From an uncultured Mycoplasmatota bacterium (GTDB lineage Bacteria; Bacillota_I; Bacilli_A; RF39; UBA660), in NCBI GenBank assembly GCA_948466395.1, contig CAOKAG010000010.1, forward strand, positions 1 to 39,903: a DNA stretch of 39,903 bases, given 5' to 3'. Position numbers and translations under genes: made by a program. Of the stretch, positions 34,378 through 39,903 are shown piece after piece. The stretch's first letter is position 1, and the number at the start of each line of letters is the position of its first letter. Below the pieces are notes generated by a model that did no database searches, was not told where the DNA came from, and saw nothing but the letters and a program-made list of their open reading frames with translations.

Positions 34378-36234
34378 TCACACACCTTTCTTGCTTGTTG
34401 AATTAGATAGTAAAATATCTTTTAAACTGACATTACTATTTAAACTAAAATTAGTTTTAGAATTATTTATATTATTGTTGTTATTTTCATTGCTGTTATC
34501 ATCTATAATTGTTCTTTTAATTCTAGGAATGCTAGTATAATCTAATGTAATCCCTTTAAATGCTGGTAATAATACCCCATTTGAATCGATTCTAACAATA
34601 CATTCTCTGTTATTTAGTTCAGTTAATAATTTAATCTTTCTATCTTTAGAATCATCTAGAGGTATTTTCATATTAAAGTTATCAACTAATACATTAGCAT
34701 CTAATTTTGATACTCTAAATATAAAATAGTTTATTACATTAGCAAATATAGAGTTCTTTAATTCATCAGATATTTGGTTAAAATATTGTCCCGCTAGTAT
34801 TAAAGATAAATTATATTTTCTTGCTTCTGATAAGTACCTAGACAAAATGGGATTTTCAACAACAGCAACCTCATCAATAATAAATATTATATGTTCATCA
34901 ATCTCTCGTTTTTGAATAATAGTCAATAACTGTTGCATTATTAATCCTGATATAGTTTTAGTTACTTTATCCCCAAGTTTTGTTCTATCTAGTGAGAATA
35001 AAGTTAAGAAATTATCATGTATTGTATTTTTTAAATTTTCATTATTTTGCTCTGAATTAAATACTGGTATCATTTCCATTTCATCTATAAACCCTATAAT
35101 TGGAGAGATAGCATCACCATAAGATTTAGTTTTTAAATCATTAAAATCTGATAAAAAAAAATCTATTACACTAATAGGTAAGCTATATTTTAACTTCTTT
35201 ATTAATTCATTTCTATACTCTAAATCTAAAATAAGTTTTCTTAAATTTCTAAAATTAAATGATTCATCAGTTAATAGTAAATGTATAGAATGTCTTAAAA
35301 CTCTTTCTAGTTTTGAATTGTATTGGTCAGCAATTAATGATTTTAATAAATCTAATAATAATTCTGTAGAGGCTACAATATCATCATTATTATTAATAAA
35401 TAAGTCAATGCTATCTAAATTACTTTTAAAGTCAATTACCTTCCCAATACCACCTATATCATTTTCAAGTGCAGCATGAGGATCAATGACTACAACTTTA
35501 TATTTTTGGCGTATATTTTCATTTTTATTAATATTATTGATTAAAAGACTTATAAATTTAGATTTACCACATCCAGAAGAGCCCATTATGATAGAGTGTT
35601 TATCAAAACTAAAATTATTTTGATTAAGGTAGAAATCACCTTGTAAATAAGGAAATGTATCAACAGAGAGTAATGCGTTATTAGAGTCAGTATTTAATAA
35701 ATGTACTATTTTATTTATTTCTAAATATTTAGGAGAACTTTTATAAAAATATCTTTTATTCCCTTCAAAGTCTGCTGATAATATACTTGTTGGAACAGCA
35801 AATATAACATTATATATTTTTATTACACCATTTTTATTAAGAAAAAATCTTATTTTAGACTTAATTTTATCTTCAAATAGTTTTAAAAAACTAATTTCAA
35901 GATATTCAAGAGTTCCTTTATTTCTAATCTCACTATAATTTATTAGGTCAATAATACTACTACCAACTTTAGGCAGAGAAAGTAATGTATAGTTATGCTT
36001 AGGTGCTTTTATTTCTTTAGTAGATTTTAACAAAAATGAATTTAAATTATTTATTGTTGCAGGAAAACTACATCTAGTTTTAACAAAGTATCTTATTTGG
36101 TTTCTATCGTTAGTGATAATTATCTTCCATTTTCTTAAAACACCATTATAATTTGATATTGTGTTAATTAACTCTAACCATTCTTCCTTTGAAATAAATT
36201 TTTTAGTTAGATATATTTCTGACGTTAACCCCAT
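34378..36234 (-). CDS. HerA/VirB4-like ATPase
   Basis: The protein is 618 aa. An N-terminal domain of about 200 residues, with no hydrophobic segments, precedes an ATPase core with Walker A IMGSSGCGKSK (about 225-235), VVVIDPHAAL, Walker B IIFIIDEVAVV and the late GQYFNQISDELKNSIFANVINYFIFRV, which resembles the DNA-pumping HerA/VirB4/TraG class. The C-terminus is Asn/Ser-rich and disordered. There are no membrane segments, unlike VirD4 coupling proteins. GAGGTGACGG precedes the ATG. Coupled to a Cys-rich protein and beside relaxase debris, it may serve DNA transfer or antiphage defence; the sequence does not decide. Confidence 0.8.
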   Translation of the reverse strand: MGLTSEIYLTKKFISKEEWLELINTISNYNGVLRKWKIIITNDRNQIRYFVKTRCSFPATINNLNSFLLKSTKEIKAPKHNYTLLSLPKVGSSIIDLINYSEIRNKGTLEYLEISFLKLFEDKIKSKIRFFLNKNGVIKIYNVIFAVPTSILSADFEGNKRYFYKSSPKYLEINKIVHLLNTDSNNALLSVDTFPYLQGDFYLNQNNFSFDKHSIIMGSSGCGKSKFISLLINNINKNENIRQKYKVVVIDPHAALENDIGGIGKVIDFKSNLDSIDLFINNNDDIVASTELLLDLLKSLIADQYNSKLERVLRHSIHLLLTDESFNFRNLRKLILDLEYRNELIKKLKYSLPISVIDFFLSDFNDLKTKSYGDAISPIIGFIDEMEMIPVFNSEQNNENLKNTIHDNFLTLFSLDRTKLGDKVTKTISGLIMQQLLTIIQKREIDEHIIFIIDEVAVVENPILSRYLSEARKYNLSLILAGQYFNQISDELKNSIFANVINYFIFRVSKLDANVLVDNFNMKIPLDDSKDRKIKLLTELNNRECIVRIDSNGVLLPAFKGITLDYTSIPRIKRTIIDDNSNENNNNNINNSKTNFSLNSNVSLKDILLSNSTSKKGV

Positions 36235-36254
36235 AATCCGTCACCTCAGCAATC

Positions 36255-36263
36255 AGTATATCA
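36255..36263 (-). promoter_or_regulatory. Extended -10 promoter of the ATPase gene
   Basis: On the minus strand TGATATACT lies about 20 bases before the ATG, directly after the AraC gene terminator. Confidence 0.45.
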
Positions 36264-36272
36264 AAAACTCAA

Positions 36273-36312
36273 AATAAAAAACTGACTTTTTAATAATCAG
36301 TTTTGTCAGTTT
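36273..36312 (-). terminator. Terminator of the AraC-type regulator gene
   Basis: On the minus strand either AAACTGAC/GTCAGTTT or AAAACTGA/TCAGTTTT can pair, the second closer to the TTTTTT run. Confidence 0.7.
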
Positions 36313-37105
36313 AATAAATTGCAACTAGAAAATCTGTTACGCCATTGTGATAATATTCTAATTCAGGTAATTCCTTTAAGTTATATTTAACTGATGGTAA
36401 GAACTCTCCATAAAATTTATGGGATATTTCTTGTATATCTTTAGCATTCTGTGAATTAATTCTAAATCTAATCCACTTACTTTTAGGTATTTTAATATGT
36501 TCAAATTTTTCAATTTTCTTATCGTATAAGCAATAATACTTTTGACTTTCTTCACGTTCTATATCATAGGTAATCATTCCATATTTAACCTCGCCATACT
36601 TCTTTAAATATCTATTTTCAGTCTGTCTAAAAAATGTTGGTGCATCTTTGCCAATTTCATCATTGTTAGTATCAATACCAACACCATATAAATTTATTTC
36701 ATCTAGATTTATTATTTCATAATCTAATTCAGTAGTAAAGTTAATATCTTCATTAAAAACGATTCTAGGAAAAATTCTTAACTTTGTTTCTTTATTTACT
36801 AGACTAGGTTTGATACCATGAAATTTTTCAAATGATCTTGAAAAGGATGTGGCATTATCATATTGGTATTTTACAGCAACATCTATTACTTTTAAATTAC
36901 CTTCATATAAATCGTATCCTGCACAAGACAGCCTTCTTTTTCTAATATATTCAGATAAAGAAATACCTGCTATCATAGTAAATAACCTTTGCATGGCATA
37001 GACATTAACACCTAACATTTTTGCTAGAACTTCATAATTAATTTTTTCTTCTAAGTTTGCATCAATATATTTAGTAATTCCATTTAAACTTTTATAAATA
37101 TTCAA
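36311..37105 (-). CDS. AraC-type regulator with GyrI-like ligand domain
   Basis: The 264-aa protein uses the TTG at 37105 (AGGGGAT upstream, -10 box TATAAT close by); the ORF extends a further 33 codons through the promoter. It begins with an AraC HTH pair (YEVLAKMLGVNVYAMQRLFTMIAGISLSEYIRKRRL; NATSFSRSFEKFHGIKPS) at about 15-105. The rest is a GyrI-like small-molecule-binding domain (FYGEFLPSVKYNL and LPELEYYHN), as in Rob/BmrR-type regulators that sense drugs. It is a transcription factor; the target is unknown, and no efflux pump is adjacent. It terminates before the ATPase gene. Confidence 0.88.
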   Translation of the reverse strand: MNIYKSLNGITKYIDANLEEKINYEVLAKMLGVNVYAMQRLFTMIAGISLSEYIRKRRLSCAGYDLYEGNLKVIDVAVKYQYDNATSFSRSFEKFHGIKPSLVNKETKLRIFPRIVFNEDINFTTELDYEIINLDEINLYGVGIDTNNDEIGKDAPTFFRQTENRYLKKYGEVKYGMITYDIEREESQKYYCLYDKKIEKFEHIKIPKSKWIRFRINSQNAKDIQEISHKFYGEFLPSVKYNLKELPELEYYHNGVTDFLVAIY

Positions 37106-37124
37106 AGTACATCCCCTATATAAT

Positions 37125-37133
37125 ATTATAACA
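37125..37133 (-). promoter_or_regulatory. Extended -10 promoter of the AraC-type gene
   Basis: On the minus strand TGTTATAAT lies about 20 bases upstream of the TTG start; the -35 region is weak. Confidence 0.5.
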
Positions 37134-37136
37134 AAA

Positions 37137-37634
37137 TCATTTTTCAAAATCATCACTTTTATCCTTATTTTTATTGTTTTGAATAATTTCAATATCATCG
37201 TCATCTATGAAATCATCATATTTATTGTAGCGAAGAATTTAACTTGTAAGAATTTAATAAGCTTCTTCCATAACTCTTTAAAGTAATCCACTATTTTTTT
37301 GTATTTCTGATACCTTCTCTTCTAATTCTTCAATTCTATCATCACGAATTTTTATTTTCTTTTTCAAATTCCTAACTTCATTAGAATGTTCTCTTAAATG
37401 ATCTTCATATTTTTGTAAGACTATATTTATATCATTTGCCTCTCTCAAATTGAATGCAGTGTCATTAGTTTGCTCTATGTATTTTCTTATTTTGTTAACT
37501 TCTTCATTTGAAATAGTGAAATTATTTTTATTCATTATTGTTGGTTTTAGATTATCAATAATATCATTAATCTCATTAGATTTATTTTGTAATTCATCAG
37601 TTTTATTATTTAAGAAGAAGTTAATACAAATCAC
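37137..37634 (-). pseudogene. Decayed MobV/Pre-type relaxase C-terminus
   Basis: Three frames read on from one another. The 118-aa ORF (37278-37634) is a coiled coil (NEVRNLKKKIKIRDDRIEELEEKVSE). Then another frame gives YKKIVDYFKELWKKLIKFLQVKFF and a third gives RYNKYDDFIDDDDIEIIQNN ending at 37137. This order, coiled coil then 'DYFKxLWKKLIxFLQ' then an acidic tail, is how MobV (Pre/Mob) plasmid-mobilization relaxases end. The catalytic N-terminus is missing. At least two frameshifts make it non-functional. Confidence 0.55.
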
Positions 37635-37742
37635 TTATATTTAGTTAATTGTTTAATAAAGGTTTCGAAATCCTTTAATTCTAATTTATTTGATAGATTA
37701 CCTACATATAAAGTTTTAGAGTAGTTAAATGCAAGAAAAGTT
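37631..37742 (-). other. Peptide reading that may continue the next small ORF
   Basis: A frame without its own start reads ITFLAFNYSKTLYVGNL then KLELKDFETFIKQLTKYK and a TGA. It lies one frame off the CxxC ORF upstream and could be its lost C-terminus. I do not recognise it. Confidence 0.3.
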
Positions 37743-37902
37743 ATTCTTTAATACTATGGGGCTCGGCATCACTCAAATTCGTTCTAGTAATATTATGAAT
37801 ATTAATAATAGTGGGTTTTGTATTACAAAAATCACATATAAATTCTATTTTCCTTTTTAACTCACACCCAATCTCTAATTCCTTTGTAGTAATATTAATC
37901 AT
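37741..37902 (-). CDS. Possible 53-aa protein with a CxxC motif
   Basis: This ORF is too short for the track. It starts MINITTKELEIGCELKRKIE, has a zinc-ribbon-like FICDFCNTKP, and ends SIKE. The ribosome site is weak (CAGGG). It may be real, or the first part of a gene broken by a frameshift and continued in 37631-37742. The rest of 37903-38014 shows nothing I can support. Confidence 0.35.
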   Translation of the reverse strand: MINITTKELEIGCELKRKIEFICDFCNTKPTIINIHNITRTNLSDAEPHSIKE

Positions 37903-38014
37903 TTAAACCCTGTTCTTTCCAAACTTAAACACTAAAAAAGTACCAACTTCTCTTTGAAATTGATACTTATGTATTTTAAATCCTAAACTATAAAAGTTCG
38001 GACAGATTTCCCAA

Positions 38015-38059
38015 TGGAGGGCCTAGTCGGATTTGAACCAACGATCAGGGAGTTGCAGA
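38015..38059 (-). other. Truncated tRNA-Cys 3' half, att-like
   Basis: Read on the minus strand this is the 3' half of a tRNA: anticodon loop CTGCAAC (GCA, Cys), stem TCCCT, a four-base variable loop, the T arm GTTGG-TTCAAAT-CCGAC, acceptor TAGGCCC, discriminator T (typical of tRNA-Cys) and CCA. The 5' side (TTATAT) cannot pair with the anticodon stem, so the D arm and 5' acceptor are absent. Such 3' halves are the usual cores left by integrases using a tRNA gene. Confidence 0.8.
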
Positions 38060-38093
38060 TATAACCTTTACAATAGAATTTGTCATTTTTTTG

Positions 38094-38108
38094 AATTAAA
38101 TCGTCACA
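38094..38108 (+). repeat. 15-bp direct repeat, copy 1
   Basis: AATTAAATCGTCACA, also found at 39486-39500. Both copies follow a TTGA stretch. The pair flanks the DUF4143-type ATPase gene. Confidence 0.65.
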
Positions 38109-38120
38109 ATTTCGTCAATA

Positions 38121-39311
38121 TTAAATATTATCTAATGACTCTAATAGTAAAAAATCTTTTAATTTTATATGAGTTACCATGCTTGTAGAGTAATCAATCT
38201 CATCATTTGTTATAATGACTTTTTTTATCGTATTATCTAAGTTTTTGAATGCATTAAATTCTCTATTGTATGTTTTTTCATCAGCAATACTATAAGCAAC
38301 TTGAATATAATATTGCTTATTATCTTTAAAAATTAAAAAATCAATTTCTTTATCATTATTGTGAAATACATTAATATTGTAACCCATAAAAAGTAATTCA
38401 TTATATACTATGTTTTCTAAGTTATGAGTTAAATCATAACGATTGTCCATACATCTAATAGAGTTAAAAGCAACATCAGAATTATATATTTTAAAATAAT
38501 AAGCTAGTTCATTTTTAGTTTTGGTAGAATATGGTTTTATTCTTTCAATAATATAGGCTTCTTCTAAATAATTCAAATACTTAATAATTGTGTTAATAGA
38601 GCCATCAATGTGCTCATTTTTTAAGTAGCCTTCTATAGAACGAGCAGAAAAAATTCTAGAATTGGATTTTAAAACATAATTTGTAATTCTTTTAAAAAGT
38701 TCCATGTTTTGTATTTTAAATCTACTGATCAAATCTTTTTCAACAATAGAACTATTAATTTCATTTAAATATTTAATTTTGTCTGCTTCTTTTTGAAATT
38801 CAAATCTTTTAGGAAATCCTCCCCAGATCAAATAGTCCATAATACTACAACTAATTTTTAATTCTTGGCAATATTCCATTATCTCTTTATAAACAAATGG
38901 TCTAATCTGAAATGAAACATATCTTCCACTAAATTCTTTTGTAAACTCATTTGATAGTAGTTTAGAATTAGATCCAGTAATAAATACAGAGTGATTATCT
39001 AATCTTAAAGTTTTACAAGCAAGTTGCCAATCTTTAACTTCCTGAATTTCATCAAAAAACAAATAGTTTTTTCCATTTTTTCTATTTTTATTTATATACT
39101 CTAGTAATTGTTTGGCGTTTGAAATGGTAGATATAATTCTTTCATCTTCAAAATTCAAATAAATAACATTATCACTTTTATTTTTAATTTCTTCCATAAT
39201 TTGTTCTAAAATAATAGATTTACCAGATCTTCTAATTCCCATAATAATTTTAATTAAGTCTGAATCATAAAATCCTCGAATTTGTTCTAAATAGTGTTCT
39301 CTTTTTATCAT
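38121..39311 (-). CDS. AAA ATPase with DUF4143-type C-terminus
   Basis: The protein is 396 aa with an AAA_14 domain, Walker A MGIRRSGKS (about 25-33) and Walker B YLFFDEIQEV, the arginine/sensor stretch VFITGSNSKLLS, and a C-terminal DUF4143 domain (about 190-390) with a nuclease-like KEIDFLIFKDNKQYYIQVAYS, reminiscent of the PD-(D/E)xK fold. These cytoplasmic proteins are common in genomes and mobile regions; their role is not settled. AAGGTGG precedes the ATG and a consensus promoter with a palindromic operator lies upstream. The gene sits between two 15-bp direct repeats. Confidence 0.9.
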   Translation of the reverse strand: MIKREHYLEQIRGFYDSDLIKIIMGIRRSGKSIILEQIMEEIKNKSDNVIYLNFEDERIISTISNAKQLLEYINKNRKNGKNYLFFDEIQEVKDWQLACKTLRLDNHSVFITGSNSKLLSNEFTKEFSGRYVSFQIRPFVYKEIMEYCQELKISCSIMDYLIWGGFPKRFEFQKEADKIKYLNEINSSIVEKDLISRFKIQNMELFKRITNYVLKSNSRIFSARSIEGYLKNEHIDGSINTIIKYLNYLEEAYIIERIKPYSTKTKNELAYYFKIYNSDVAFNSIRCMDNRYDLTHNLENIVYNELLFMGYNINVFHNNDKEIDFLIFKDNKQYYIQVAYSIADEKTYNREFNAFKNLDNTIKKVIITNDEIDYSTSMVTHIKLKDFLLLESLDNI

Positions 39312-39328: not shown

Positions 39329-39357
39329 ATTATACTGAACAATTTTTCATAATTCAA
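39329..39357 (-). promoter_or_regulatory. Promoter of the DUF4143-type ATPase gene
   Basis: On the minus strand TTGAAT (39352-39357), 17 bases, TATAAT (39329-39334). A TTGTTCAG half-site touches the -10 box. Confidence 0.7.
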
Positions 39358-39409
39358 TAAAATTGTTCAGCGTGCTGAACAATTTTGCAAAGAAATAACA
39401 TTTTGTTCA
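39336..39409. promoter_or_regulatory. Palindromic operator array
   Basis: A perfect 13-bp inverted repeat (AAAATTGTTCAGC / GCTGAACAATTTT, two-base spacer) spans 39359-39386. Further half-sites lie at 39336-39346 (TGAACAATTTT) and 39401-39409 (TTTTGTTCA). The main palindrome sits directly upstream of the -35 box and one half-site overlaps the spacer. Confidence 0.7.
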
Positions 39410-39485: not shown

Positions 39486-39500
39486 AATTAAATCGTCACA
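39486..39500 (+). repeat. 15-bp direct repeat, copy 2
   Basis: Second copy of AATTAAATCGTCACA, 24 bases after the glyQS stop codon. Confidence 0.65.
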
Positions 39501-39523
39501 TATCCTCACATTTTCTTAATTAT

Positions 39524-39903
39524 CTAAAACATAGTTTTTTCAATTACATAATAAGGAATATCATCAATGTTCATTGTGATTTGTTCCATGGTATCTCTAT
39601 CTCTAATAGTAACCAAACCATTTTCTAACGTCGTATCATCAATGGTAATACAAAATGGAGTACCAATCGCATCTTGCCTTCTATATCTTTTACCAATAGA
39701 GGATGAATCATCCATTGTACACATAAAATAATTATTCAATTTGTCATAAACTTCTTTGGCTTTCTCTGAATGAATCTTTTTAATTAATGGTAATACAGCA
39801 ACTTTATATGGTGCTAATGCTGGATGAAGTTTTAATACATCTCTAATGCTTCCATCATCTAAAGTTTCTTTTTTTAAAGCATCACATAAGAATACAAGCA
39901 TCA
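39524..39903 (-). CDS. glyQS: Glycyl-tRNA synthetase, C-terminal part
   Basis: The reading frame runs off the right edge of the window; 125 or so C-terminal residues are present. They are the anticodon-binding domain of the dimeric class II glycyl-tRNA synthetase: LKLHPALAPYKVAVLPL, SIGKRYRRQDAIGTPFC and VTIRDRDTMEQ. It charges tRNA-Gly in the cytoplasm. The stop codon is TAG at 39524. Confidence 0.95.
   Translation of the reverse strand, partial: MLVFLCDALKKETLDDGSIRDVLKLHPALAPYKVAVLPLIKKIHSEKAKEVYDKLNNYFMCTMDDSSSIGKRYRRQDAIGTPFCITIDDTTLENGLVTIRDRDTMEQITMNIDDIPYYVIEKTMF

Follow-up and report, generated by a model that had tools for sequence, protein, structure and literature searches.

How half a tRNA gene came to stand alone near the end of a contig, next to part of a glyQS gene, is the question that this locus raises. 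The stretch analysed (the window, 39,903 nucleotides) is the entire contig C10 of the source genome G000, an assembly of 1.36 Mb in 65 contigs. On its minus strand, positions 38015-38059 read TCTGCAACTCCCTGATCGTTGGTTCAAATCCGACTAGGCCCTCCA, which the first-pass annotation had described as the 3' half of tRNA-Cys, from the anticodon loop to CCA, left behind by integration at the 3' end of a tRNA gene.

The displaced half of tRNA-Cys and its intact counterpart

The sole intact tRNA-Cys(GCA) of the genome was located on another contig, at C53:1216-1289 on the minus strand. Within G000, the half matches this gene over 47 bp at 98% (E = 5.6e-17), which excludes chance, and from the anticodon loop to CCA the two are identical over 44/44 bp; the 45th base of the half (T at 38059) already belongs to the element. 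A comparison with the intact gene, which the annotation had proposed as the check, therefore agrees with its reading. ARAGORN detected no tRNA in the whole window, Rfam returned nothing in it at the gathering threshold, and the folding of the region showed no structure beyond chance (z = -0.03). The 5' half of tRNA-Cys is absent from 38060-38120, upstream of the half, so a full tRNA does not fold at 38015-38059. Hits obtained for the region with Rfam at a loose threshold were chance hits, and weak BLAST matches inside G000 (C36 and others) aligned the A/T-rich flank alone and were dropped.

The segment very probably represents the right-hand border (attR) of a small mobile DNA inserted into the anticodon loop of tRNA-Cys. 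The crossover core, CTGCAAC, occupies 38052-38058 in the anticodon loop of the half, and the same junction point is found in two relatives, G013 and G024. The earlier proposal of an attachment-site scar is thus retained, with the crossover moved from the extreme 3' end of the tRNA gene to its anticodon loop. In Islander, tDNA islands are defined by a restored tRNA gene together with a displaced fragment, and 2,083 of the 3,919 islands have an anticodon-centred site (PMC4383910). In itself, the half in the window is an ordinary, well-known island scar and is best called a CIME-like remnant.

The complete unit in a relative and the reconstructed empty site

The entire arrangement is carried on one contig of G013 (C37, L074). 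Its order is an intact tRNA-Cys (L074:4042-4115), a left end with a terminator and a repeat, an AAA_14-DUF4143 gene (L074:4390-5580), a right repeat and the displaced half (L074:5720-5764). Core to core, this unit measures 1,649 bp and contains one gene; no integrase was found in it. At its left end, 76 bp match the DNA that follows the intact tRNA-Cys on C53 at 98.7% identity, which places attL on C53 and attR in the window. Beyond its half, the G013 contig continues with DNA resembling the segment that comes after the half in the window (86% over 132 bp). The restored gene and the displaced fragment that mark a tDNA island therefore lie together on a single contig in G013; in G000 they are divided between two contigs, which synteny and the empty site described below connect.

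The gene in the window that corresponds to this cargo, at 38121..39311 on the minus strand, encodes an AAA_14-DUF4143 ATPase of 396 aa, and its DNA is 98.7% identical to that of the gene lying between the intact tRNA-Cys and the half in G013. The protein is assigned by PADLOC to PDC-S01 (PDLC04787, E = 2.5e-118, residues 1-390), a common candidate defence family for which validation is still pending (PMC12988326). From its sequence, it is a candidate single-gene phage defence. Homologues at 73-75% in G010, G015 and G017 were rejected as copies of the same element, as neither arm repeat nor tRNA half was seen in their flanks. Inverted repeats around GTTCAG lie at 39350-39390, just upstream of the DUF4143 start; the same place in these three homologues holds repeats of other sequence, perhaps an autoregulatory operator.

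On the low-coordinate side, the half is followed by the native trailer of tRNA-Cys, a hairpin with a terminator at 37885..38011 on the minus strand, which is 95.3% identical over 128 bp to the DNA directly after the intact tRNA-Cys in G006 and forms the old chromosome side of attR. To reconstruct the empty site, the 5' half from C53 was joined to the 3' half and low-coordinate trailer of the window. The joined sequence aligns continuously across the junction with seven relatives: G006 (96%, 206 bp), G018 (91%), G021 (88%), G014 (88%), G010 (84%), G002 (83%) and, in another genus, G248 (91%, 367 bp, across its intact tRNA-Cys). Synteny agrees with this. In G006, G014 and G018, a single contig carries tRNA-Cys between the gene that adjoins it on C53 and window genes 30254 and 32457, and in G021 window genes 32457, 33676, 34378 and 36311 lie on one side of tRNA-Cys and the C53 gene on the other. 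The G013 unit, the synteny of relatives and the joined empty site all uphold the orientation suggested earlier, in which coordinates increase from the old chromosome towards the element.

Several further features of these flanks were noted. A small gene associated with the trailer survives in the window as a frameshifted remnant of 53 codons (37741..37902, minus strand) and is intact in G248 (91 aa), where it adjoins the only intact tRNA-Cys of that genome. Trailer and small gene (MI..KELE..FICDFCNT) recur after tRNA-Cys and tRNA-Thr (window 37741-38014; L022:3484-3669; L144:6685-6960), and the trailer is also seen after tRNA-Gly and tRNA-Leu. Within one genus, tRNA-Cys is inverted relative to its conserved neighbours in G006, G014, G018 and G021 as compared with G000, G010, G016 and G020. 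A HerA/TraG-like ATPase and an AraC-type regulator near tRNA-Cys (window 34378-37634) are shared with G021 (G021:C1), and a coiled-coil gene at 37278-37634 resembles one near the second glyQS of G020 (G020:C22:5642-5974).

The proximity of glyQS, only 1.5 kb from the half, had led the annotation to consider a rearrangement likely. The glyQS sequence in the window (39524..39901, minus strand) is the C-terminal end of a second, divergent copy that runs off the window. The housekeeping glyQS lies on C24, near an rRNA methyltransferase-like gene and rimM- and trmD-like genes (names from sequence). The window copy shares 73% identical DNA with the C24 copy and 92-94% with the extra copies in G019 and G020; the C24 and G020 copies score above the NCBIfam cut-off as glycine--tRNA ligase. 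This second divergent glyQS is full-length in G020 (467 aa, G020:C22:257-1660), occurs also on G019:C14, and apparently resides on variable DNA. The glyQS close to the half is thus an additional copy on the element's side of the junction, and its position can be explained without rearranging the chromosome. This copy is probably element cargo, and accretion or recombination between arm repeats may have brought it beside the DUF4143 unit.

Arm-type repeats and a related ICE in a split tRNA-Cys gene

A repeat, GTGACGGATTTGTGACG, lies at fixed distances inside the element ends, 94 or 116-117 bp on the left and 137-138 bp on the right. The distance from CTGCAAC to the left repeat is 116 bp in C53 and G020, 117 bp in G013, and 94 bp in each of G024, G248 and L156. 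In L156, which has tRNA-Cys and the arm repeat, no displaced half is present within the 8 kb examined. The right repeat lies 137 bp from the core in G024 and 138 bp in G013. In the window, the right repeat, TGACGAAATTGTGACGA (38101..38117, minus strand), is only 60 bp from the core, so this attR is short of about 78 bp, which were lost between A-rich runs; the loss would have crippled the site. A degenerate left repeat (TGTGAGGATATGTGACG; 39494..39510, minus strand) starts 13 bp after the glyQS stop, within a 50-bp arm segment that matches the left end of G013 at 94%. In this place the left arm is preceded by glyQS and not by tRNA-Cys, and the contig may be misassembled at the shared 'TAGATAATT'.

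Without mismatch, the repeat TCGTCACAWWTNCGTCA occurs in G000 at two sites only (window 38101-38117 and C53:1126-1142), both by tRNA-Cys sequence. The exact pattern GTGACGRATTTGTGACGAWT was found in 15 stretches in about 85,000 genomes, 12 of which adjoin a gene for tRNA-Cys or tRNA-Arg, or half of a tRNA-Cys gene; an exact search of viral contigs with the arm pattern matched none. The fixed geometry of core and repeat is as expected of integrase arm sites, and the repeats are accordingly spaced like, and may be, such sites.

The same heptamer and arm repeat bound a much larger element in G024. On contig C6 of this genome, tRNA-Cys is split at CTGCAAC into a 5' half (47838-47874) and a 3' half (83693-83737) 35.8 kb apart. 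The intervening DNA encodes a VirB4/TraG-type ATPase, a MobL relaxase, a T4SS-DNA_transf coupling protein, TrbL, a sortase, a SpaA-type surface protein and, at its right end, a 542-aa tyrosine integrase. Integrase, relaxase, coupling protein and T4SS ATPase thus all lie between the split halves, as is required of an ICE. Unlike the window and G013 element, this ICE splits tRNA-Cys without rebuilding it, leaving the gene unrestored at the left junction, and carries a whole tRNA-Cys gene inside (80892-80966, minus strand), the only intact one found in G024. The 5' half in G248 is split in the same way and accompanied by the repeat, and the only intact tRNA-Cys of that genome lies elsewhere, at C8:43071-43140. 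In a sample of 386 genomes of the family, which did not include G013, the only ones with a 5' half that breaks off immediately behind CTGCAAC (the following base being other than T) were G024 and G248, and 3' halves standing alone were confined to G000 and G024; both counts are lower bounds, as the search patterns were strict.

The arm repeat and core shared with the G024 ICE are consistent, at the sequence level, with derivation of a CIME from an ICE or IME. An evenly balanced interpretation holds that a single integration system, directed at the anticodon loop of the lone tRNA-Cys, has two solutions: an att site that carries the 3' half and rebuilds the gene (G000, G013, G020), versus the G024 ICE, which has a 7-bp core, brings its own tRNA-Cys and makes the host dependent. 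In the literature searched, with many subscription papers outside the search, no account was found of an ICE that interrupts a tRNA gene and substitutes a copy carried within the element; such a tRNA-replacing ICE is less ordinary than the scar in the window. In another Bacilli MAG (L164:4586-5028), tRNA-Cys stands by an arm repeat and a short frame similar to the C-terminal part of the G024 integrase; the locus looks like a decayed ICE whose replacement tRNA-Cys stayed behind. A decayed tRNA half suspected nearby (L164:5126-5175) scored 10 against a shuffle mean of 8.1 (sd 3.3) and was rejected as unsupported.

Proposed integration mechanism and alternative origins

Under the proposed mechanism, site-specific recombination at CTGCAAC in the anticodon loop of the sole tRNA-Cys would insert the element, whose att site would bring a copy of the tRNA 3' half. 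The tRNA would thereby be rebuilt at attL (C53:1216-1289) and the host's original half pushed to its place in the window. A tyrosine integrase like that of the G024 ICE, acting at CTGCAAC with the arm repeats, may have moved the element. With arm-type repeats, one AAA_14-DUF4143 gene and no integrase, the resident unit would behave like a CIME, relying on an integrase that comes in trans or from a tandem partner. In G013, a related integrase module on C77 (int 30% identity), cut by the contig end and adjoining two further homologues of G024-module genes, is a candidate helper. The left part of the G000 island also holds an IS110-type transposase and probably the second glyQS.

Alternatively, the half could terminate an intact ICE or prophage of large size that extends beyond the right edge of the window, with DUF4143 merely its last gene. 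We regard this as the most serious competitor, though an unlikely one. The left end of C53 runs on into an IS110-type transposase, and in the window the left arm comes after glyQS, so the G000 island exceeds 1.65 kb, and the G024 relative is indeed an ICE of 35.8 kb. However, the unit in G013 is complete at 1.65 kb with one gene, and G000 contains no homologue close to the G024 integrase at E 1e-10. The assembly is incomplete and has the two ends on different contigs, C53 and C10, so the G000 island is not visible whole.

Improbable, but to be weighed, is that the low-coordinate trailer and small gene form the left end of another tRNA-targeting element, so that the half is common to two elements in tandem. 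Such an arrangement would account for trailer-like DNA after tRNA-Thr and tRNA-Gly in G000 and after tRNA-Leu and tRNA-Gly in relatives, for the multiple copies of the small gene, and for the block 91% identical in another genus across the intact tRNA-Cys of G248. Yet the trailer follows intact tRNA-Cys in six members of the genus with the small gene decayed, and a simple terminator hairpin of this form occurs in G029 and G036, both of which observations read as native; nor was a second displaced half found. Partial tRNA duplications do happen in general, but a pseudogene that arose without a mobile element, through a chance duplication or the loss of part of a tRNA gene, is hardly credible here given the precise breakpoint that G000, G013, G024 and G248 share at the heptamer, the fixed spacing of the arm repeats and flanks that rejoin into an empty site.

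The preferred reading, a small element inserted at the anticodon loop, can be compared with two known classes. Like the anticodon-loop islands of Islander, it has a restored tRNA at one end, a displaced 3' fragment at the other and a crossover in the anticodon loop; unlike them, the complete 1.65-kb G013 unit lacks the tyrosine integrase expected within an island, and the G000 ends lie on two contigs. CIMEs keep attL and attR but have lost integration and transfer genes, and their tandem accretion with ICEs or IMEs is known (PMC5704250). The G013 unit likewise retains both att sites without integration or conjugation genes, G000 being judged on its two ends only, and accretion fits the glyQS/DUF4143 composite. 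It differs in its single cargo gene and 1.65-kb size and in that its genome yielded no parent element.

These results establish where a mobile island ends in an uncultured lineage that is Tenericutes/Bacilli-like, and they remove the false puzzle of a glyQS 'rearrangement'. They point to a tRNA-targeting integration family with recognisable arm repeats, in which a candidate phage-defence gene resides in a 1.65-kb unit without integrase. If the replacement of tRNA-Cys by the ICE is true, mobile elements can take over tRNA genes, and such takeover would be relevant to the changes of position and orientation that tRNA genes undergo in these genomes.
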